From positions 1-42,574 of the IMG/VR virus record IMGVR_UViG_3300035698_012750: a stretch of DNA of 42,574 nucleotides; one strand, 5' to 3'. This DNA is from a virus. A program made the translations under genes and the position numbers. A model generated the notes under the pieces. That model searched no databases. It saw only the letters and a list, made by a program, of their open reading frames with translations, and was not told where the DNA came from. Shown here piece by piece: positions 3,218 through 22,989 of this stretch. Position 1 is the stretch's first letter; each line of letters starts with the position of its first letter.

Positions 3218-3245
3218 TATCAAATAAAACTTGATTTATTTGATA
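3218..3245. promoter_or_regulatory. Perfect 11-bp inverted repeat upstream of terL
   Basis: TATCAAATAAA (3218-3228) and TTTATTTGATA (3235-3245) are perfect reverse complements around a 6-nt spacer ACTTGA. The site lies in the only sizeable gap of this region (3182-3278), 33 nt before the terL start. The arms are nearly all A/T, so it would be a weak transcription terminator and has no T-tract. Its perfect symmetry is more like an operator for a dimeric DNA-binding protein. No good -35/-10 pair could be assigned around it. Confidence 0.45.
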
Positions 3246-3278
3246 ATATCAGGCAACATTATTTCGTTCGGAGGAATA

Positions 3279-6245
3279 ATGTCGTTTAAGCTACCACAAG
3301 AAAAAGGCTCGGTCACCAAAGAAAAACTTGTCGAAGAGAAGTATTCTCACGACTCGATCGCTGATCATGAAGATGCTGCGAAGAAGTTTTTAGCTGATAA
3401 CATCGCTAAAGCTAAAGCCGAGGCTGAAGACTTTGAATCTTCTGAAGCTAGTTATGTCCTGTCAGATGAAGAGATGTGGCAACTCTCAGAGAAGATCCTT
3501 AAATATTGTGAGGTGCAGTCTGGGATAGATATGTACTACTACCAGAGGAACTTTGCACGTCGTATAATTTTTTCGGTAATTGTAGAAGATACTGCAATGA
3601 TTACATCACTTTGGTCGAGACAAAGTGGCAAAACTGAAACAGTTGCGCAAGTAATTACCGGTCTCATTATCATCTTGCCTCTTCTAGGATCAATCTACAC
3701 AGATCCACGAATCCAAAAATTCAAGCATGGTGTATGGGTGGGGATATTTGGTCCAACGTATGAGTTGGCCGGTATCATGTACAATCGTATGCGGACCAGG
3801 ATATTTTCTAAGCACGCACAAGCTGTGCTTAACGATCCTGATATCAGTATTGATTTGTCTACATTCCGTGGGCGTGCACTACAGTTTCCAAACGGTTCCT
3901 TTGTAGATGTACAGTCTGCTGGTCCGGGATCAAAGATTGAAGGTAAGACATACCACGTTGCACTCCTCGAAGAAACGCAGGATATACCGAACATTAAAAT
4001 TAAGAAATCTATCTCTCCGATGATGGCTTCAACCGCAGGTTGCCTTACTGGGCCTATGCGTATTACGCTAAGCGATGGGACGATAGAGCCAATAGTTGAC
4101 GTTGTTACAACCTCGAATGCTTCAGCTGTGATGTCCTTGCCATCAGAAGACACAGCGACGAAGAATTATGATTTGGTACCACAGCCTATAGCTGGGTTCC
4201 ATCATAACGGTATTGCGGAGTGTGTACGTGTGAGTACGCGGGACGGTCGCGTACTGGAGTGTACCTGTGACCACAAATGGCTAGTAGCTGTGAATTCGCG
4301 GCGTGGTACTACTAAATGGGTCCGTGCGGATGAACTGGAGCCTGGGGATAAACTTTGCTATAGTATAGCCGAGCATGAGGGTGCGTTGCATGACGAGTCG
4401 ACGTACCCGGAACTGCTTGGATACATCATATCGGATGGGTGTATCACGGCTGATAAACGTGGTCGGCTGCATCCAGTGGAGATCGCATGTTCACGTGATA
4501 CAACCATTGCGGACTGCAAGCAACTGACTGAGAGATTTTCTGATGGGCTGAAGTGGGTCCACAGTGGACGCCGTGGTCGTATATCTCACATACGTAATGG
4601 ACTTAGGAGGCCGAATGCATTACAGGTTCGACTTCTTGATGACGGTATGTGGGGTAAGAGCGCACATACGAAAAGTTTACCAGTAAAATACCTGAAGTGG
4701 GATGCGGATACACTGGGGCGGTTCTTATCACGTTTGTATGCCGGTGATGGGTGTTTGCATATCGCGTCTGGTAACGTAACCATACAGTACTCGACTGTGA
4801 ACGAGGCACTGGCACAACAAATACCTGAGCTTCTTCAGCGGTTTGGGGTCTATTCTTACTACAGAAGAATTACCATGACACACCCGTCTGGTAAGCAGGT
4901 ACCTGGGTACGTGGTATATGTATCACGTAAGAACAGTGTCATACGTTTCTTGGACAAGATAGGATGGTGTAGAGATCGAACACTGGAAGCAGAAGCACAT
5001 AAGTGCTTAGGCGAAGGTAAGCAATTCAAGTATCATCAATTTGCATATATTCCTGTGAGGCTGGTGGAACGTATTGGGGAGCAACTTACTTATGATGTCG
5101 AGGTCGATAACTCTCATTGCTACGTTGCTGGTGGATTTATATCGCATAATACAAAGATAAAAATTGGTACACCGAATCCTGACAAGAATGATTTCTACGA
5201 TTCCTGCGAGAAAAACAAGATCCGTGACGAGCATAAGATCATGGAGCTTGGTGAAGCAAAAGCCGAGCGGTACAAAACTCATTTCGAGTATGACTACACT
5301 CATGCAGCAAGATGCAATCCTCGGTACGCCAAGTATATTGAGATGGAGATGGACGATCTTGGATACGATTCAGACGAGTTTCGCATGAGCTATCGTATTC
5401 AGTGGTTGGTCGAACGAGATCGCTTCTTGACAACGTCAGTGTTGAACGCTGCCGGGGTGGAGCGTGGGTACACGTTAAAGTGGACAGATGACGAAGATGA
5501 GGTCAAGGGGACATTCCAAGTAAGCGGGATGGTCCAGACCAGTGGCATCGTTGAGGGCGACATCATAGTTGCAGCGGATTTTGGAAAGAGTAGATCATCC
5601 ACCATACTGACTGCTGGCAAAGTCTGGGTTGAACGTGATTACTTCGATGGGCAGGAAACCCGTAAACGTGTTCATGTGGTGGACTGGCTAGAGTTAGAAG
5701 GCGATGACCACGAGTCACAGCATATACAAATTATTGAATTTCTAAATAGATTCCCTGGTCTTTACAAGTTTATTGGTGATGCAACTGGTAAAGGTGATCC
5801 GATTGTATCGAGGCTAAAAGCAATACTTGAATCCCGCGGCGTAATTGTTGTGCCGTTTATCTTTTCTACACAATCGAAACATGATGGATATACTGTATAT
5901 TACAAAGAGCTTGTGGCCAAGCGTTTCACATATCCATATGCCAAGCAGACTAGATCCCGTAGGGTACGTCGTTTTCGGCAACAGCATTTGGAATTGAAGA
6001 AGGGGTGGAAGGGACGATACATCGTTGTCGAGAAGCAGAAGGATGATGAACGTTCTCGTGACGATTATCCTGACTCCAGCATGATGTTGTGCTATGCTGC
6101 TAATGTTGATCGATCCGGGTACACGGAAGAGATTGAAGAGAATCCGTTTTTAACATCCGGACGACGCCACGCAATATTAGCGGAGCGTGGGGCGAGGGCT
6201 GCATGGCACAAAGAACCACAAGGCAGGACAGGGCCATGGTCTTAA
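3279..6245 (+). CDS. terL: Terminase large subunit (DNA packaging ATPase-nuclease) with intein
   Basis: This is the motor that pumps phage DNA into the procapsid and cuts the concatemer. The start is ATG 3279, with GGAGGA 3 nt upstream; the frame also extends to a TTG at 3231 without ribosome-site support. The N-extein (254 aa) has an adenine-binding Q segment (YYYQRNFAR, 86-94), Walker A SRQSGKT (113-119) and Walker B with catalytic Glu in HVALLEE (226-232). The intein follows directly after STAG. The C-extein (364 aa) starts with TKIKIGTPNP, completing the ATPase coupling motif. It then has an RNase H-like nuclease with acidic residues in AADFG (spliced residue ~397), GDATGKGDP (~464) and DDYPDS (~562). 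Spliced length is 618 aa, close to T4 gp17 (610). Packaging therefore depends on protein splicing. Confidence 0.95.
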   Translation: MSFKLPQEKGSVTKEKLVEEKYSHDSIADHEDAAKKFLADNIAKAKAEAEDFESSEASYVLSDEEMWQLSEKILKYCEVQSGIDMYYYQRNFARRIIFSVIVEDTAMITSLWSRQSGKTETVAQVITGLIIILPLLGSIYTDPRIQKFKHGVWVGIFGPTYELAGIMYNRMRTRIFSKHAQAVLNDPDISIDLSTFRGRALQFPNGSFVDVQSAGPGSKIEGKTYHVALLEETQDIPNIKIKKSISPMMASTAGCLTGPMRITLSDGTIEPIVDVVTTSNASAVMSLPSEDTATKNYDLVPQPIAGFHHNGIAECVRVSTRDGRVLECTCDHKWLVAVNSRRGTTKWVRADELEPGDKLCYSIAEHEGALHDESTYPELLGYIISDGCITADKRGRLHPVEIACSRDTTIADCKQLTERFSDGLKWVHSGRRGRISHIRNGLRRPNALQVRLLDDGMWGKSAHTKSLPVKYLKWDADTLGRFLSRLYAGDGCLHIASGNVTIQYSTVNEALAQQIPELLQRFGVYSYYRRITMTHPSGKQVPGYVVYVSRKNSVIRFLDKIGWCRDRTLEAEAHKCLGEGKQFKYHQFAYIPVRLVERIGEQLTYDVEVDNSHCYVAGGFISHNTKIKIGTPNPDKNDFYDSCEKNKIRDEHKIMELGEAKAERYKTHFEYDYTHAARCNPRYAKYIEMEMDDLGYDSDEFRMSYRIQWLVERDRFLTTSVLNAAGVERGYTLKWTDDEDEVKGTFQVSGMVQTSGIVEGDIIVAADFGKSRSSTILTAGKVWVERDYFDGQETRKRVHVVDWLELEGDDHESQHIQIIEFLNRFPGLYKFIGDATGKGDPIVSRLKAILESRGVIVVPFIFSTQSKHDGYTVYYKELVAKRFTYPYAKQTRSRRVRRFRQQHLELKKGWKGRYIVVEKQKDDERSRDDYPDSSMMLCYAANVDRSGYTEEIEENPFLTSGRRHAILAERGARAAWHKEPQGRTGPWS
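4041..5150 (+). other. LAGLIDADG-endonuclease intein inside TerL, 370 aa
   Basis: The insertion begins at Cys (codon 4041-4043) and ends with His-Asn (Asn codon 5148-5150), followed by Thr as the +1 nucleophile. Block A is CLTGPMRITLSDG. Block B has Thr75-x2-His78 (TCDHKWLVAV). Two LAGLIDADG-type motifs, LLGYIISDG (125-133) and LSRLYAGDG (229-237), mark a homing endonuclease with its acidic residues kept. Block F is YDVEVDNSHCYVAGG and block G is FISHN. All splicing residues of a class 1 intein are present, so it should be active in both splicing and DNA cleavage. Removal joins STAG to TKIKIGTPN in frame. The host site is the most conserved ATPase coupling region, a usual choice for homing elements. 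Confidence 0.95.
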
Positions 6246-12061: not shown

Positions 12062-12891
12062 TGGCCGACAAACGTGATTTGCTGAGACAAGTGAGATCAG
12101 CGGTACATGATCCTGATCCCCCGCCCTCTTTCAGAGATGCGGTGATCTACAGCGATGAGCCGTATGTCGATGCGTTGCATTTTGCTCTGAACAAGTTGAA
12201 TCTTGACTTGAGAAATCTAACCGATTTCTTGCCACTTCCTCCCTGGACTTTCACAGCCATACCTGAGACTCTCACATTCCTACTGATAAAGCTGGCTACC
12301 ATCCAGATGGCGCAGATGCGAGGAGCAGAAGCCGCAGGGTCTGTATCAGTACAGACTGAGGCCGCTGCTTCCGGTATCCAAGAAATTGAGATGCCTGATC
12401 TTCGGGTTAAGGAGCATAATCAATCTACTGGAGCATCCGACACTTATGGTCCTGGCTACTGGCGGATGATGTGGGATAGATTACAGAAGGAGTACGACGA
12501 CGAGAAGCGTAGTTTGGTCAATGACCAATCACCGTTCAAGGGACAGATACAGCAAGGTGTCATGCAGCGTTACAGCGTTCGCACTGGTGCACTGGCTCGG
12601 AAGGAACTTGATCGAGGACTACCGGCGTCGACCCTTTCTGTGAGTTTTGTATCTCCAACCGTCTCGGCGGAGTGGGCCAAAGTTTATGATGACACATTCC
12701 AGTACTACCGGTTGTACCATCAAGCACCTGGAAGTGATTCAGAAACTGTGACTACACTGTACAGCAATCACGATGATTCATATGAATGGGATTCAAGTTT
12801 AGCTGTAGGTCAGCATTTGTTCTGGCTCGACGCGGTGAACATGAATGACATCGCTACTCGTAGTAATATCGTTCGCATGGACATCGAATAA
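12061..12891 (+). CDS. Head-tail connector/neck protein with FN3-like C-terminus, 276 aa
   Basis: The N-terminal 175 residues are mostly helical (SDEPYVDALHFALNKLNLDL, FTAIPETLTFLLIKLATIQ), similar in layout to portal-adaptor proteins. The last 85 residues read as a single fibronectin-type-III-like beta sandwich: LSVSFVSPTVSAEWAKV, then YYRLYHQAPG, then SLAVGQHLFWLDAVN and SNIVRMDIE. FN3 domains on head and neck proteins are thought to aid weak surface binding. The gene position after the capsid genes and before the neck genes supports the adaptor role. No sequence family is firmly recognised. Confidence 0.6.
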   Translation: MADKRDLLRQVRSAVHDPDPPPSFRDAVIYSDEPYVDALHFALNKLNLDLRNLTDFLPLPPWTFTAIPETLTFLLIKLATIQMAQMRGAEAAGSVSVQTEAAASGIQEIEMPDLRVKEHNQSTGASDTYGPGYWRMMWDRLQKEYDDEKRSLVNDQSPFKGQIQQGVMQRYSVRTGALARKELDRGLPASTLSVSFVSPTVSAEWAKVYDDTFQYYRLYHQAPGSDSETVTTLYSNHDDSYEWDSSLAVGQHLFWLDAVNMNDIATRSNIVRMDIE

Positions 12892-13340
12892 TGGGTTTGA
12901 CGCAAACGTCAGTGCTGACGAAAGTTGACACAACATTGAGCCTTGCACCCATTGGATATGGTACACAACTCTATGTCTTGAAGTACAGCGGTAAAGAAGC
13001 AATTCGAGATAATCCGTTTAACTATGCCCCTCCTGGTTTCGATGATCCTTTGCTGGCAGTTGGCCGGGGTATTGTTAAACCTTCTGCAGAGGTTGTATCA
13101 CGGTACGGAGGTTCGACTAAGAAGTACGACCTATTGGTTCTTATGTCGAGGTTGGAGTTGATTCGTCGGTTCCCAAGTGCTGAAGAGAATGCATGGATCA
13201 CTGAGAACGATCGTATTCAGTTTCGTGGCAATGTGTACTTGATATCAATAGCGAAGCCCACTGGGCAGATGCAGGACTACTGTACAATGATGGCTCTCTT
13301 TTGCAACACTGCAAAGGGCCAGGGTTTGGAGAAGCCATAA
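12891..13340 (+). CDS. Neck/head-closure protein (probable), 149 aa
   Basis: The ATG overlaps the upstream TAA. The mixed alpha/beta protein has RIQFRGNVYLISIAKPTGQMQDY near the end, resembling head-tail stopper proteins in which a beta barrel carries a D-x-I/V-x-F/Y-x-G-x-x-Y pattern. The size is typical of this class. The placement, third gene after the capsid protein and before the tail genes, is what mainly supports the assignment; a tail-completion role is also possible. Confidence 0.55.
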   Translation: MGLTQTSVLTKVDTTLSLAPIGYGTQLYVLKYSGKEAIRDNPFNYAPPGFDDPLLAVGRGIVKPSAEVVSRYGGSTKKYDLLVLMSRLELIRRFPSAEENAWITENDRIQFRGNVYLISIAKPTGQMQDYCTMMALFCNTAKGQGLEKP

Positions 13341-14059
13341 TGGCCACTCAACTTGGATTAAAACTTACTGCGGAGATACATCCCACAAAGTGGAATGTAG
13401 AGACTCGGCGGATGTTGGCATCCTTGTCTGCGGGCAGCATGGACAATCCGATCATCGGTACGTATGCATCCTTATTTGGTGATCTTTGCTTTGATTCATA
13501 CGCGCTGTTGCTTGAAGTGATGGGCACAATGGGCGATGCAAAGCCTGTTAAAGACAGCACCATGGAATTCCGTGAAAGGGTGCATCATTCTACTGTAGCG
13601 GGAGGGACTAAAAGCGGTATAAGTCATTTGCCGCCTTCTTCCATGTCGCGTAGGTCGTTAGTCTTTACCAGTGGTTATCGTAGTTCAGTATTGTACTCGA
13701 TGAAACGGTACGGATCAAAGATGGTATTTCGGATATACCCAGATCCAAATGCAACCCATATCTACATTGGTAAGAATGGGCGGCAGTTGACCTCAATACC
13801 TGTCATTGAGTTGGCGGATAGGTTAGAGCAGTATAACCCTCACTGGGAGCCTGCATTCAAACTTATTCCATTTCTACCTGCATGGAATAAGCTTCGTAAT
13901 GGACCGATGACGTCAGTGTTGACGTCTAATAAGTCTGTGTTCCCAGTGAATAGTGCAATTCCGAGTGACACGTTTGCGTTCCGGCGAGCGAGGCGACTCC
14001 AGCGTGGAGGAGCTACGTCTGAGACAGATTATGCGAAGATGCTTTGGACAACGAAGTAA
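13340..14059 (+). CDS. Neck or tail-completion protein (unrecognised family), 239 aa
   Basis: The start at ATG 13340 overlaps the previous stop (TAATG). The frame is open earlier to 13301, but inside the upstream gene. The product has conserved-looking segments such as LPPSSMSRRSLVFTSGYRSS and FRIYPDPNATHIYIGKNGR, a Trp/Pro-rich region (PHWEPAFKLIPFLPAWNKL) and a basic C-terminus (RRARRLQRGG). The mid-size protein between a head-closure gene and a tail-terminator-like gene suggests part of the neck. No motif assigns a precise function. Confidence 0.6.
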   Translation: MATQLGLKLTAEIHPTKWNVETRRMLASLSAGSMDNPIIGTYASLFGDLCFDSYALLLEVMGTMGDAKPVKDSTMEFRERVHHSTVAGGTKSGISHLPPSSMSRRSLVFTSGYRSSVLYSMKRYGSKMVFRIYPDPNATHIYIGKNGRQLTSIPVIELADRLEQYNPHWEPAFKLIPFLPAWNKLRNGPMTSVLTSNKSVFPVNSAIPSDTFAFRRARRLQRGGATSETDYAKMLWTTK

Positions 14060-17621: not shown

Positions 17622-18134
17622 ATGGCTGCTACAGACAGCATTCTCACTACTGATTACCAGTCGTATTACCGGCCCGGTAACTTCAAGTTCAATCTTACGA
17701 TCGGCGACAACGTGATCGGAGTGAACAAAGTTTCTGGATTGGGTAACAGCACTGATGTGATTGAGTATCGTGAGGGCGGTGAAGTTGAACTCAATCATAA
17801 GTTCCCTGGCCTGACGAAGGTGGACAACATCACTGTCGAACGAGCAATCGTGCCCGGTGGTGTTAGTAAAGCCAATCCTACTTTCTTCCTCGACTGGGAG
17901 AAGTCGGTCTTGGACGTCACACGAGCCGGTGGCGGCGCGGAGAGCAACAAAGAGTACCGTAAGCTCATTCGTGTTGATCTTCTGGACCGTACAAATTCCA
18001 TCGTCTCCGTCTGGTATTGCTACAACTGCTGGCCGACAAAAGTGTCTTGGAGTGACTTCGATGCCGGAGGCAACGATGTCCAACGAGAGACAGTTGAACT
18101 GGCGTGCGAGTACGTGAGACGCCTTTACACGTAA
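17622..18134 (+). CDS. Major tail tube protein (T4 gp19-like), 170 aa
   Basis: The tube protein polymerises into the inner hollow tube through which DNA passes. Length and sequence match the gp19-like tube family. It starts with YYRPGNFKFNLTIGD, then GLGNSTDVIEYREGGE and a KFPGLTKVDNITVERAIV strand. The central GGAESNKEYRKLIRVDLLD and the final WPTKVSWSDFDAG followed by VELACEYVRRLYT complete the pattern. AAGGAGG lies upstream. A strong hairpin terminator follows, so sheath and tube may share the end of an abundant transcript. Confidence 0.92.
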   Translation: MAATDSILTTDYQSYYRPGNFKFNLTIGDNVIGVNKVSGLGNSTDVIEYREGGEVELNHKFPGLTKVDNITVERAIVPGGVSKANPTFFLDWEKSVLDVTRAGGGAESNKEYRKLIRVDLLDRTNSIVSVWYCYNCWPTKVSWSDFDAGGNDVQRETVELACEYVRRLYT

Positions 18135-18156
18135 CGGTCGAAGTACTACCTTTTCC

Positions 18157-18188
18157 GTGCTGGGGAATCGTCCCCAGCACGTTGTTCT
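18157..18188 (+). terminator. Strong hairpin terminator after tail tube gene
   Basis: GTGCTGGGGA (18157-18166) and TCCCCAGCAC (18171-18180) pair perfectly over 10 bp with a 4-nt ATCG loop. The following GTTGTTCT is U-rich but broken by G. It stands in the 94-nt gap after the tube gene. The stem is strong enough for intrinsic termination or for an RNA 3'-end stabiliser. It likely lowers expression of downstream tail genes relative to tube. Confidence 0.75.
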
Positions 18189-18228: not shown

Positions 18229-19020
18229 ATGAGCGGAAATCCCACGATTGGATTGGAAATCAAGTTACCCATTGGAGTCGAAGTAGACGGCGTCAGACAC
18301 AACCGTATGTTCATCGACGAGATGTGCGGTGTTGACGAGGAAAATCTTGCTTCCCCTACCGTCCGGAACAATTCTTCAAAAGCAAACACAGTTCTTCTCC
18401 AGCGCCTCATCCAGTCCATTCCTGGGCTGCTAGAGACGAAGGATAACCGGTATGGCCTGATACCGGATGAACTGGTACGCAACATGTACCAAGCTGACCG
18501 TGATGCAGCCGTCATCGGCATGCTACAGCAGTCACCGAATCCTACCAATGATGAAGTAGCCACATGCCCGTGGTGCCAGACTCAACAGCCTCCACGTCAT
18601 GTTGACCTGCGGGAGTTGGGTATCAAAGAGTGGCCAGCGGACAAAGCCGCAGAGTTCCCGATAGAACTTCGACGTGGTGTCATGGAAGACGGGGTTACTT
18701 ACACGAGCGGCTTCTTCCGTTTTCCGAAGGGCAAAGATGTCGAGGAAGTAGGTAGTGTACAGGGCAACATGGCCGATGCACAGACACGGTTGTACTTCAG
18801 ATGCTTGAATATCAACACGGATCATTTCATTCTCAGCAAAGAGCATGTACGTCAGATGTCGAAGTATGACCGCGATTACCTAGGGTTCATGCTTCAGAAA
18901 CATGCTCCTGGCTACGAGACGACTTATGAAACGCAATGCGTCGGCTGCGGCAAGAAGATCGAAGGGAGCATAGATATCGCTGCTTTTTTCGATACGACGC
19001 GGGACTTCAACTTCGGTTAA
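18229..19020 (+). CDS. Tail assembly chaperone, zero-frame product, 263 aa
   Basis: This gene lies between tube and tape measure, where tail assembly chaperones are encoded. GAAGGAG precedes the ATG. Residues 78-92 and 145-175 are mixed alpha/beta. Two Cys pairs, CPWC (113-116) and CVGC (237-240), suggest one structural zinc site bridging distant parts. Residues near the end (IDIAAFFDTT) contain the slippery site. The zero-frame product ends nine codons later; a -1 shift replaces those nine residues with a 63-residue extension (total about 317 aa). By analogy with lambda gpG/gpGT and P2 gpE/E', both products should coat the tape measure during tail assembly. Some myophage homologues in this place are annotated as baseplate hub proteins; that is the main alternative. 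Confidence 0.8.
   Translation: MSGNPTIGLEIKLPIGVEVDGVRHNRMFIDEMCGVDEENLASPTVRNNSSKANTVLLQRLIQSIPGLLETKDNRYGLIPDELVRNMYQADRDAAVIGMLQQSPNPTNDEVATCPWCQTQQPPRHVDLRELGIKEWPADKAAEFPIELRRGVMEDGVTYTSGFFRFPKGKDVEEVGSVQGNMADAQTRLYFRCLNINTDHFILSKEHVRQMSKYDRDYLGFMLQKHAPGYETTYETQCVGCGKKIEGSIDIAAFFDTTRDFNFG
18984..18990 (+). promoter_or_regulatory. -1 programmed ribosomal frameshift site T TTT TTC
   Basis: In the zero frame the codons read GCT TTT TTC, giving the canonical slippery heptamer X XXY YYZ at 18984-18990. After slippage the next codon is CGA 18990-18992. A candidate stimulatory stem (18999-19007 paired with 19024-19032, one A-C mismatch, one G-U) begins 8 nt downstream, which is within the usual spacing. 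The shift leads into the overlapping frame that ends at 19181. P2 uses a very similar T TTT TTG site in its tail gene. Confidence 0.8.
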
Positions 19021-19181
19021 AGAAAGCCCTGCGGACGCACGTACAGATTTTAGCCGAACGGTACCGTTGGGATCATGAGATGGTGGTAAGACTAACGTCA
19101 ATTGATCGACTTTACTATGTTGAAAGAGCCGTTGAATCATATGAGAAAGAGCAACAAGCAATGGACGATGCTCGTCGCTAG
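18990..19181 (+). CDS. -1 frame extension of tail assembly chaperone, 63 aa
   Basis: This frame is read only after -1 slippage and adds a helical, charged extension beginning RYDAGLQLRLKKALRTH and ending KEQQAMDDARR. The frame extends upstream to an ATG at 18936, but that codon lies inside the first gene without a ribosome binding site, so independent initiation is unlikely. The following tape measure gene and the frame relation (-1) match the gpGT-type extension that binds tape measure. Helical periodicity in the last 30 residues (VERAVESYEKEQQ) supports a real protein. Confidence 0.78.
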   Translation, partial: RYDAGLQLRLKKALRTHVQILAERYRWDHEMVVRLTSIDRLYYVERAVESYEKEQQAMDDARR

Positions 19182-19192
19182 TACCAATAAGA

Positions 19193-19222
19193 GGCTCGGC
19201 GTCGTCGCCGGGCCTTTTTGTT
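19193..19222 (+). terminator. Intrinsic terminator directly before tape measure gene
   Basis: GGCTCGGCG (19193-19201) pairs with CGCCGGGCC (19206-19214) over 9 bp with one G-U and a TCGT loop, followed by TTTTTGTT. This is a textbook rho-independent terminator. It ends only 12 nt before the tape measure start codon. Tape measure transcripts must therefore come from read-through or antitermination, unless a promoter was missed. Confidence 0.85.
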
Positions 19223-19233
19223 AGGAGTCTTTC

Positions 19234-22200
19234 ATGGCTGGTCCAATGACATTAGAAATCAACTTGGTATTGAATGCTGCCGGTGTGAAAGCTGGTGGCA
19301 AGCAAGCCGAGGAGGTTTTCCAGGGCTTTGAAGGCAAAGTAAAGCAGTTCAGCCGCAATGTGCTCAATTCTCTTCGAAGGATTGAAACTGGCATCTCTAC
19401 ACTCGCGACTGCAACAAAGTCGCATGGTGCCGCTGCTGTGCAGTCTGAGAAAGCCATTATCAATGTGTTGAAGCAGCATGAGCAACAAGCGCAGAAGATA
19501 GAAACAGTAGAGAAAAGTGTTCGCATGAGTTCGTTGGCTGGAAAAAAGGCAGAGATCCAGCTTGCTGGTAGAATAGCCGCGATGAATCGATTAGGGCATG
19601 AAGAATTAGCGGTTGGCTTGCAGTGGATGAAGAGGAGAGAAGTCGAACTCCAGAATGAGATCCAGCTTCGCAGGATGAGCGGGGAAGTGATCAAAGAGTC
19701 GATGAAGATTGAGCAAGCTGCACTGCAAATGAGCATTCGTTATGGCACGACTCGCCTTAAAACTCTGAGTCTGGTAAACACTGGTGAAAAGAAGGCAGCA
19801 GCAGATCGCAAGGCGATAGCTAAAACCGAGGAAGAAGCGGTTGCGGCTCTTGAGAAGCAGCGGATTTCCAAGTACAACGTCATGCAGAAGTGGATCACAC
19901 AGATACACAAGAGCGAGACAAACAAGCGACTTACAGCGGAGAAAGCTTTTGCGGCTAAGCAACGCGCAATTGCTGAAGCCCAGGCTGCTCAGGTACAGCG
20001 CCTATGGCATAGTTTATTGCGGTATACGACTGTTGGTTTGACCTTTGCTATGGTGATGCAGCGGGTAGGTGATAGTATTGTAAATGGTCTGGTTCGCCCT
20101 GCTGTAGCCAGCTTTGGTGAGTTTGAAGCAAAGATGGTCAGGATTGGCTTTCTGCTGAGCGACTACCATGGATCGAAGTACCGTGAAGCTACTACGTTTA
20201 TTCAGAGATTTGCTGCAGACAGCTTGTTCTACATCGACCAAGTACAAGATGCCCTAACCCAGCTACTTCAGAGTGGCTTGGACTTTGGTGCAGCGAAGGG
20301 TGCGATGGTGGCTGTTCACAACTGGGCGCTTTTATCAGACCAATTGAAAGACACTCGATCCACTGTTCGTTTGCTAGTCGCAACATACAATATATTTCGT
20401 AAGTCTACTCCGGGACTGGAGAAGTTGTTCGAAGCTTCACCGGAAAAAGCATTTTCTAGGATTGGGGATCAGTTGGCGTTCATGACGCAGAAGACAATCT
20501 TTGAGCCGAAGGAAATGGGTGCATTCATCAGAACGATGCGTGGAATGCCTGCACTGTTACATATTCCATTAGATGAAATCCTTAGTGTTGGTGGTGCTGT
20601 TAGATCGGGTGGTATGCAGCCTGCTGATACTGGTCATTCTATTTCAACCTTTATCCAGCGTATGACTAACATCGAGAAGAAAGTTGCACGTTTTGGGGCG
20701 AAGGATGTCGGTGATTACTGGAAGAAACTTGGTTTGTCACCAGCCATGATTGAGAAAGCGATCGCGGCATCTGGGCGTGATGTAGGCAAGAAGATTCGTA
20801 GAGCTATGTCGGCGCAAACCATCGGTGGTGCGATGAAGGGTATGGGGCTTGAATTCTTTGATAACGGTAAGTTTGTTGGATTAAATGAAGCTATCAAGCG
20901 CACTATTACATCACTTGGAAAACTGGAATCAGAACAAGCCAAGATTATCTTAGCTACGACACTATTCGGACAGCAGGGTCTGACTGCCGTCAAGATGGTA
21001 GAAAACTTCAAATATAAGACTCTGGAGGGCGCGGCGGCACTAGATAAGTTTAACCAAGATATCAAGCGGTCCAATGGCTACCTGCAAACGTTTGCCGAGG
21101 AGAGGCTCAAGAACTTCGAGGCGAAGTTGAAGTTGATCAATGCAGTCCTAGAAACGATCAATGTCCAGATTGGTGCCGTGATTGGAGATGCACTATCACC
21201 TTTGTTAGATGTAATCAAGCCAGTACTGCAGGGGATTGTTAAATTCAACAACGAGTATCCAATGGTGACCAAGGGTATTGTCATGATAACGACAGCCTTT
21301 GGTGCACTAGCATTGGTTCTAGGAACTCTAGGAGTGGCTTTCTTCGGGTTTATGTCCATGATGTCATTGACGTTGTTCTTTACTAACGAGGTCAGTAAGA
21401 ATGGGCTGATGCCGATGGGCATGGTGCTACAGTCATTACGAAAAGATCTGGCAGTCATTACTAAAGGTATGATTCCATTCAACCTAACGCTTGGGCAGCT
21501 TGGTTTAATACTGAAGTTTGGCGTGCTTGGTGGCTTGATTGGCGCGGCTATTTACCTGACGAACCTCGGTGGCGCCGCGGATTGGGTCAATGAGAAGATC
21601 AAGTCTGTGAGATTGGTATTCGGCGCGTTGCAAGAGTACTTCAAGAAGGGTTATCTATCGAAGGGTACGATGGGTGCATTGCTTGGCTACGGCTCTGATG
21701 GACCGAATGTACTTGGATGGTTCGAAGACATTCTGCATGCAATTCGCTGGGTAAAAGCTATAGGCCAAGGTGTATGGAGTGGGTTACAGCGTGGGCTAGA
21801 GCAACTGGAGGAGCCGTTAAACCAAATATGGAAAGTGTTTGGCGCTGTAGCGTCATTGATATGGAGTGCAATTGAAGGTCTCCTTGGCCTGGGTGGTGAG
21901 CTGCGCAATACTGATGGATACCTTGGTAAAGTCAGTGCAGCAGTGTCGGATGTTGTGTACTGGTTGTCTTGGTTGATTATAATCCCAATGAAGGCAATTG
22001 GCGTGGTTGCTTCATTGCTTGGTTGGCTTCTTAAATTCGACGCAGTTCAATGGGTTGTGGTAAAACTGGTCCAAGGTTACATGGCGTGGTGGGCATGGAC
22101 TAAGCTCTGTGCAATAGCTCAGTGGGCACTTGGCAAAGGTTTATTGAAAATAGCAACACTGATGCTGATGTCACTGGCCCCGGTGATCGCGGTAATGGCC

Positions 22201-22989
22201 GCACTGGTTGGTGGGTTCCTATTGGGTACATACGTGATAAACAAGTTTGGTGATTATGTCGATGCCATCATATTGAAGTTCCGTGATCTGAGACTGACTA
22301 TCATTGAAGCACTTGGCCCTCTTACAAGCATTGGTAGGGCTGCGCTTAGTCTCATTCCTGGCGGAGGGGCGCTTTACAGTGCACTATCGGCAGCTAATCC
22401 TGAGCAGGGCATGAGTATAGAAATGCAGCGCAAGTCACTGGAGGCTGACAAACGTAACTTCGCAGCAAACGGTACACCTAAAGGTGATAAGTGGGACGCA
22501 ATGGGCGGTTCATTTAGACAACGTATGCTCAATACTCTAAGGGAAAGATTTAGTATGGGGACTGTGGACTACTCGGAGCAAGAGAGGCTGGAGAGACTAC
22601 GCGGCACCGGTATTGGACTTGGGTTTACACAGGATCCGATTTTCTCAAGTGCGGAAGGTCAGTATAGTAGTGGCACAGGCACACTCTTTGACTTCATGGG
22701 TGGTAGGCAGATGCCACTGGACCAAGCAAGCCAAATGAATATCCCGGCATCATTCCCTGGAATGTCATCCACTTATTCAGATGGTGACTTAAAGAAGATG
22801 ACTGAAACGATGACCGCAAGTAACGTGCAGTACGGGGCTACCCAGCCGAAGATCGGTCAGATGTCTGTTAGGAATGATATTGATATCCATGCATCATATG
22901 CATTGACCCCGGACAAAATGGATGAGATCATCGACCGAGTGGAACTGAAGATGCGGCAGGGTGCACTTGGCCAATCATTAGCGGAGTAG
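19234..22989 (+). CDS. Tail tape measure protein, 1251 aa
   Basis: This is the longest gene of the tail module, located directly after the chaperone frames. Residues 20-260 are long Ala/Lys/Glu helices (coiled coil). Residues 263-287 are hydrophobic (TVGLTFAMVMQRVGDSIVNG). The region around residues 320-460 (IDQVQDALTQLLQSGLDFGAA, then KEMGAFIRTMRGMPALLHI) is typical of the tape measure core. Hydrophobic helices lie near 676-720, 752-778, 906-933 and 972-1002, consistent with membrane interaction during DNA ejection. Length sets tail length; at about 0.15 nm per residue the tail would be near 190 nm. TTAGGAG precedes the ATG. No lysozyme or peptidase motif is seen. Confidence 0.9.
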   Translation: MAGPMTLEINLVLNAAGVKAGGKQAEEVFQGFEGKVKQFSRNVLNSLRRIETGISTLATATKSHGAAAVQSEKAIINVLKQHEQQAQKIETVEKSVRMSSLAGKKAEIQLAGRIAAMNRLGHEELAVGLQWMKRREVELQNEIQLRRMSGEVIKESMKIEQAALQMSIRYGTTRLKTLSLVNTGEKKAAADRKAIAKTEEEAVAALEKQRISKYNVMQKWITQIHKSETNKRLTAEKAFAAKQRAIAEAQAAQVQRLWHSLLRYTTVGLTFAMVMQRVGDSIVNGLVRPAVASFGEFEAKMVRIGFLLSDYHGSKYREATTFIQRFAADSLFYIDQVQDALTQLLQSGLDFGAAKGAMVAVHNWALLSDQLKDTRSTVRLLVATYNIFRKSTPGLEKLFEASPEKAFSRIGDQLAFMTQKTIFEPKEMGAFIRTMRGMPALLHIPLDEILSVGGAVRSGGMQPADTGHSISTFIQRMTNIEKKVARFGAKDVGDYWKKLGLSPAMIEKAIAASGRDVGKKIRRAMSAQTIGGAMKGMGLEFFDNGKFVGLNEAIKRTITSLGKLESEQAKIILATTLFGQQGLTAVKMVENFKYKTLEGAAALDKFNQDIKRSNGYLQTFAEERLKNFEAKLKLINAVLETINVQIGAVIGDALSPLLDVIKPVLQGIVKFNNEYPMVTKGIVMITTAFGALALVLGTLGVAFFGFMSMMSLTLFFTNEVSKNGLMPMGMVLQSLRKDLAVITKGMIPFNLTLGQLGLILKFGVLGGLIGAAIYLTNLGGAADWVNEKIKSVRLVFGALQEYFKKGYLSKGTMGALLGYGSDGPNVLGWFEDILHAIRWVKAIGQGVWSGLQRGLEQLEEPLNQIWKVFGAVASLIWSAIEGLLGLGGELRNTDGYLGKVSAAVSDVVYWLSWLIIIPMKAIGVVASLLGWLLKFDAVQWVVVKLVQGYMAWWAWTKLCAIAQWALGKGLLKIATLMLMSLAPVIAVMAALVGGFLLGTYVINKFGDYVDAIILKFRDLRLTIIEALGPLTSIGRAALSLIPGGGALYSALSAANPEQGMSIEMQRKSLEADKRNFAANGTPKGDKWDAMGGSFRQRMLNTLRERFSMGTVDYSEQERLERLRGTGIGLGFTQDPIFSSAEGQYSSGTGTLFDFMGGRQMPLDQASQMNIPASFPGMSSTYSDGDLKKMTETMTASNVQYGATQPKIGQMSVRNDIDIHASYALTPDKMDEIIDRVELKMRQGALGQSLAE

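Follow-up and report, generated by a model that had tools for sequence, protein, structure and literature searches.

The open reading frame (ORF) that lies between the tail tube and tape measure genes of the window, by which we mean the whole of the 42,574-base virus record analysed here, very probably encodes a gp26-type tail assembly chaperone of a contractile-tailed phage, which would be produced in a short and a long form by a −1 ribosomal slip. We infer slippage, its frequency and the chaperone activity from the sequence of the locus, the phase of its slippery heptamer, a two-domain homology with other phages, the conservation of the site among relatives and the order of the genes (Table 1).

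Table 1. Coordinates, strand and supporting details of features at the chaperone locus of the window
Feature	Position	Strand	Details
Tail tube gene (T4 gp19 type)	17622..18134	+	PF06841 E=7.8e-29
Terminator-like hairpin, tube/chaperone gap	18156..18181	+	−22.3 kcal/mol, z=−6.3
0-frame ORF, predicted short chaperone form (TAC-N), gp26-type zinc-ribbon protein	18229..19020	+	263 aa; family profile made without the window, fold match, place between tube and tape measure
First CxxC of zinc ribbon (CPWC, residues 113-116)	18565..18576	+	
Second CxxC of zinc ribbon (CVGC, residues 237-240)	18937..18948	+	
Shine-Dalgarno-like AAGGGAG	18962..18968	+	15 nt upstream of heptamer; −7.6 kcal/mol with anti-SD
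Slippery heptamer T_TTT_TTC (U_UUU_UUC)	18984..18990	+	codons 252-254 of the 263-aa ORF
−1 frame continuation, predicted C-terminal domain of long form	18990..19181	+	63 aa + stop; second-domain profile match
Candidate stem, arms GCGGGACTT (18999-19007) and AAGCCCTGC (19024-19032)	18999..19032	+	8/9 pairs
Terminator-like hairpin with U tail, −1 stop/tape measure gap	19189..19218	+	−22.7 kcal/mol, z=−5.1
Tape measure gene	19234..22989	+	PF10145 E=6.6e-14; phrog_28 E=1.7e-13

With the 0 frame reading GCT TTT TTC GAT, the heptamer lies in the correct X_XXY_YYZ phase and inside the overlap of two open frames, the −1 frame being open from 18930 to 19181 after an upstream stop at 18927-18929. Fusion at this point would give a protein of 254 + 63 = 317 residues with the junction AAFF|RYDAG; among the predicted products, the tryptic peptide IEGSIDIAAFFR is specific to the fusion and IEGSIDIAAFFDTTR to the short form. 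The preliminary description of this DNA had placed the heptamer in the zero frame, with a −1 frame open to 19181, products of 263 and about 317 residues and 14 codons between the second CxxC (C240) and the slip site. Its coordinates, phase and spacing are correct, as are both lengths when the ORF and the fusion are recomputed. The genes run in the order sheath, tube, chaperone ORF and tape measure, an order shared with phages BRock, GiJojo, SP-15 and LIS04.

In the mechanism that we propose, most ribosomes would reach the stop at 19018-19020 and release the 263-residue short form (TAC-N), and a minority, carrying tRNA-Phe in both the P and the A site on U_UUU_UUC, would slip back by one base and read the −1 frame to 19181, yielding a 317-residue TAC-NC with a 63-residue C-terminal domain. 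If lambda gpG/gpGT is a guide, the short form may bind the tape measure protein and the extra domain of the long form may recruit tube subunits.

Used as a direct query, the window protein retrieves no relatives at E ≤ 0.1 from IMG/VR, GTDB genomes or phages, and no match in a PHROG search; at E ≤ 10, its matches among phages are confined to the BRock group, in an alignment that reaches residue 254, the slip site. Tube and terminase used as bait found no relatives in IMG/VR, and a scan of genomes with GiJojo gave no match. The route to the family was provided by tblastn matches of the tube gene, which lead to the Streptomyces phages BRock and GiJojo, where sheath and tube are followed by a protein with two CxxC pairs, then a small ORF and, where a tape measure would be expected, a large gene. 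This CxxC protein aligns along the length of the window protein, both CxxC pairs included, and that of GiJojo is a member of PF12322 (T4_baseplate, T4 gp26; 43.2 bits, cut-off 24.5); the window protein, with 14.7 bits, falls short of this curated cut-off, a point against the assignment; the cut-off is the threshold of one model and not a biological feature. A first-domain profile built from 25 diverse relatives, with the window left out, finds the window protein near full length at E=8.9e-13 and T4 gp26 at 3.5e-17. Moreover, an AlphaFold model of the window protein (pLDDT 75.8, pTM 0.77) finds its Foldseek matches in predicted baseplate hub proteins that resemble gp26, such as those of SP-15 (1.2e-10) and Aeromonas phage 25 (gp26, 5.8e-6), with Bacillus phage BCD7 also among the matches; no solved structure of the gp26-type chaperone family was found. 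Because of the BRock/GiJojo alignment, the profile match and the Foldseek matches, the product of the ORF is classified, on its sequence and predicted fold, as a divergent gp26-type protein of the zinc-ribbon, PF12322-related kind.

The two CxxC pairs, whose presence had been correctly noted beforehand, had also been taken as unusual for a chaperone; this second part is rejected, as they are the normal zinc ribbon of the family and occur in T4 gp26 (second CPEC, first CTC), BRock, SP-15, GXN1 and others.

In-phase X_XXY_YYZ heptamers are frequent in the window, which has 18 of them in about 37 predicted genes, and T_TTT_TTY occurs in one of its 26 Phe-Phe pairs, that of the chaperone. The other heptamers have no long −1 extension past the stop of their ORF, with the exception of one pair: in ORF 12891-13340, in-phase AAAGGGC and GGGTTTG stand near the 3′ end with a long overlapping −1 ORF (13301-14059) downstream, an arrangement that is probably an ordinary gene overlap.

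The decisive evidence that the chaperone heptamer is not there by chance is its conservation in relatives. An alignment of these, suggested in the preliminary description as a check, covers 67 non-redundant relatives from IMG/VR (59 cyanophage-like and eight of the gut-phage DP type, all of them distant kin of the window), and 66 of these carry an in-phase T_TTT_TTC at their C-terminal Phe-Phe; the remaining one, L090, has the look of a frame error made in assembly. In all 39 cyanophage clusters (90% identity), the Phe codons of the slip site are UUU-UUC and the preceding Ser or Ala codon ends in T; elsewhere in the same genes Phe is encoded by 305 TTT and 135 TTC codons, and the Glu, Gly, Leu and Ala codons next to the invariant heptamer vary freely. 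The identical heptamer is found in Vibrio phage nt-1, Pelagibacter phage Mosig, Stenotrophomonas phage Yut3, Aeromonas phage AS-szw, Salicola phage SCTP-2, Agrobacterium phage Atu_ph07, Pseudomonas phage PA5oct and the huge metagenomic phage LR756511, and the slip site of C48C1 is T_TTT_TTT. That the heptamer is kept while its neighbouring codons vary argues strongly for a programmed −1 frameshift in which two tRNA-Phe slip in tandem, and which would supply a short and a long chaperone. Against the −1 reading stand the distance of the relatives that support it, the searches having yielded no close kin of the window phage, and the use of the +1 frame by its nearest known kin.

A group of phages from a human-faeces isolate record and IMG/VR contigs (L004:5446-6380 and L022-L031) carries the identical T_TTT_TTC together with the second frame. 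Members of the DP type have no CxxC knuckles, and in the DP member of this group the chaperone lacks both CxxC pairs yet has the heptamer, so that the slip site outlasts the zinc ribbon. Vibrio phage D495 (L018:2348-3304) lacks a canonical heptamer but has a stop-start overlap, TAATG, and the IMG/VR locus L133 has neither Phe-Phe nor heptamer; in both, re-initiation or some other route may have taken the place of frameshifting.

In nearly every lineage examined, the first domain is followed by a short domain in another frame. A profile made from the second-frame domains of relatives, with the window left out, has a single significant match in the six frames of the window, at 18930-19178 in the −1 frame (E=5.7e-5; next match, E=3.5). 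The same profile matches residues 212-248 of T4 gp51 (E=2.9e-6 for the whole protein). T4 gp26 matches the first-domain profile throughout and stops three residues after a Phe-Phe, its end being overlapped by the frame of gene 25. Because T4 gp51 is a separate gene in which a gp26-like part is joined in frame to the second domain, T4 seems to have one gene for the short form and another for the long form.

It is unlikely that the second frame is a separate gene, entered at a start of its own or by stop-start coupling, in the way that gp51 of cyanophages (annotated with its own start) and the small genes of BRock and GiJojo have been annotated. Although TAATG or TGATG overlaps at the 0-frame stop of D495, nt-1 and Yut3 would permit a restart in the −1 frame, the 0-frame stop of the window has no stop-start overlap, and no start with a good Shine-Dalgarno sequence was found in its −1 frame, where the start at 18936 has a Shine-Dalgarno energy of −2.7 kcal/mol and that at 19080, with −4.0 kcal/mol, would lose half of the domain; an independent start for the second frame of the window was rejected on these grounds. 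A separate gene would also leave the invariance of the heptamer unexplained. Relatives that translate the second frame from its own start, an observation that the preliminary description had set against a frameshift, exist in annotation only (BRock, GiJojo and cyanophages), and the appearance is deceptive because the conserved reading begins straight after Phe-Phe in the other frame, its first residues (R[IVL]xL) lying upstream of the annotated starts. The separate-gene annotations concern BRock gp135 (L003:6391-6633), GiJojo gp83 (L002:6343-6645) and a cyanophage gp51 (L014:3175-3399), and the second-frame ORF is unannotated in pSt2308 and LIS04; in all of these phages it is probably the C-terminal part of a frameshift product.

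Slippage of RNA polymerase, in place of the ribosome, on the T6 run is a still less probable way of opening the extra frame. An inserted U in this homopolymer would give the same fusion, but six Ts are generally regarded as a short run for RNA polymerase to slip on efficiently; C48C1 apart, neither the length of the run (T6) nor the C after it varies, and in several relatives the second domain is reached with no such T run. From one virus record with an apparent frame change at a T6 run, one might suspect a single continuous gene that was split by faulty sequencing or assembly or that broke recently; this is essentially refuted by the recurrence of the same arrangement in dozens of independently sequenced genomes, isolates included.

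Besides the −1 ribosomal slip favoured here for the window, the family includes about 21 relatives in which the second domain lies in the +1 frame. These are BRock and GiJojo, which are the nearest known kin of the window, LuckySocke, pSt2308 and their IMG/VR kin, Bacillus SP-15, Listeria LIS04, Streptococcus GXN1, Microcystis Mel-JY01, LR756508 and a marine group (L123-L132, L135 and L139). Their conserved +1 residues follow the same Phe (EFF|VPDSK, EFF|VPDLT, EFF|TPDST, ILF|ANSDY and GFF|GLTND), whose codon is always UUU followed by C, U or A, at sites that include CUG_UUU_CGC, UUC_UUU_CGU and UUC_UUU_UGG; UUU_CGN resembles the +1 site of influenza PA-X. Because the +1 frame opens just 29 nt (most of the BRock group) or 23 nt (most marine phages) before the end of the 0-frame stop, the +1 shift in these phages is pinned to the Phe site. 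At three six-U sites (SP-15, LIS04 and Mel-JY01), a −2 slip instead of a +1 shift is possible.

A −1 shift on U_UUU_UUC would characterize T4-like, jumbo and gut phages together with the window, and a +1 shift on UUU_N those of Streptomyces, Bacillus/Listeria, Streptococcus, Microcystis and the sea. In the tree, the +1 class requires three changes, and the −1 window, on a long branch, groups with the +1 BRock clade (support 94/96); the rejection of a single origin for the +1 class is marginal (p-AU 0.047). We consider it likely that this is one chaperone family in which the recoding site is fixed, at the Phe-Phe after the second zinc knuckle, and the direction of the shift depends on the lineage, with the −1 window grouping with a +1 clade. 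If true, these phages form a natural series in which a frameshift reverses direction and both products are kept. The comparison of these phages suggests that selection maintains the pair of short and long chaperones and that the recoding event is interchangeable, be it a −1 slip, a +1 slip or two genes as in T4; such interchange at homologous sites makes the evolution of frameshift direction testable.

Judged by sequence, the closest known system is the gp26/gp51-type chaperone of T4. The core of the original proposal, a −1 shift in a tail chaperone gene directly before tape measure, is strongly upheld by homology and heptamer conservation; lambda G/GT and P2 E/E′, which it had cited as precedents, are analogues. 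T4-like gp26 (TAC-N) and gp51 (TAC-NC) share with the window the family, the zinc ribbon, the second domain and a poly-T site that ends the short form, and U_UUU_UUC in S-SM1, nt-1 and others is identical to that of the window, with the same Phe-Phe. In contrast, the window phage is not T4-like, having an SPP1-type portal and its own tape measure and sheath types; its chaperone is about 15–26% identical to those of T4-like phages, and its chaperone gene has tube and tape measure as immediate neighbours, in contrast to T4 itself, where the two forms are split into genes 26 and 51. Vladimirov, Gautam and Davidson are said to have found frameshifting kept in several T4-like groups, with T4 itself using genes 26 and 51.

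The lambda gpG/gpGT and P2 E/E+E′ pairs, reportedly the work of Xu, Hendrix and Duda in 2004 and of Christie et al. in 2002, showed no sequence kinship with the window chaperone in the present searches beyond a sub-threshold match of the latter to PF10109 (P2 E type; E=0.04, 14.4 bits, cut-off 25). The chaperones of lambda and P2 are without this zinc ribbon, and their slip sites differ from that of the window. BRock gp136/gp135 and GiJojo gp82/gp83, nearest to the window in both sequence and gene order and homologous in both domains, differ from it in that their second domain is +1, entered at CUG_UUU_CGC or CUG_UUU_CAG, and in being annotated as two genes.

The lambda G/GT system has been reviewed, and in the archaeal myovirus HSTV-2 a +1 shift in the corresponding gene is reported as very likely (PMC5009743). 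Vladimirov, Gautam & Davidson 2022 (Virology 566:9-15; doi 10.1016/j.virol.2021.11.003) deals with gp26 and gp51 as the tail assembly chaperones of T4-like phages, and a paper that cites it (PMC12846349) states that TAC-N genes of these phages contain poly-T slippery sequences. In Pakpunavirus and Vandenendeviridae, a −1 frameshift takes place at a GTTTTT that ends TAC-N, and the second ORF is usually mis-annotated as a separate gene (PMC12846349); this is the −1 direction predicted for the window, likewise at a T run where TAC-N ends, but the motif differs. A frameshifted chaperone of the gp26/gp51 type is therefore already known from T4-like phages, and what is new is the membership of the non-T4-like window phage. 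No report of +1/−1 alternation within the gp26-type family was found in the literature searched, which did not extend to the key 2022 paper on T4-like chaperones, and the alternation is provisionally regarded as new.

Around the slip site, a stem had been put forward in the preliminary description as a stimulator of frameshifting. Its arms and position, beginning 8 nt after the heptamer, are as described, with one G-U pair and one A·C mismatch; the stimulatory role is not supported, since the region folds at chance level (z=−0.50 to −0.78 against shuffles), with z=−0.50 and −0.62 for the 60 nt downstream of the heptamer against dinucleotide shuffles. Several relatives with the identical heptamer are likewise without a stimulatory structure, which is not obligatory for this class. 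The Shine-Dalgarno-like AAGGGAG is a possible stimulator, and not every relative has such an element. The two flanking hairpins may lower the expression of chaperone and tape measure relative to that of the tube. As a terminator is annotated in the Bacillus SP-15 record at the place matching the first hairpin (L010 3753-3785), attenuation between tube and chaperone may be common to both phages.

The assignment gives a contractile phage that is otherwise an orphan its tail chaperone, and it puts right a common error of annotation, by which the second frame is called a separate gene and the chaperone a baseplate hub subunit. Elsewhere in the window, the terminase large subunit (3231-6245) contains an intein with a LAGLIDADG endonuclease domain (PF14890, 40 bits; PF14528, 60 bits).
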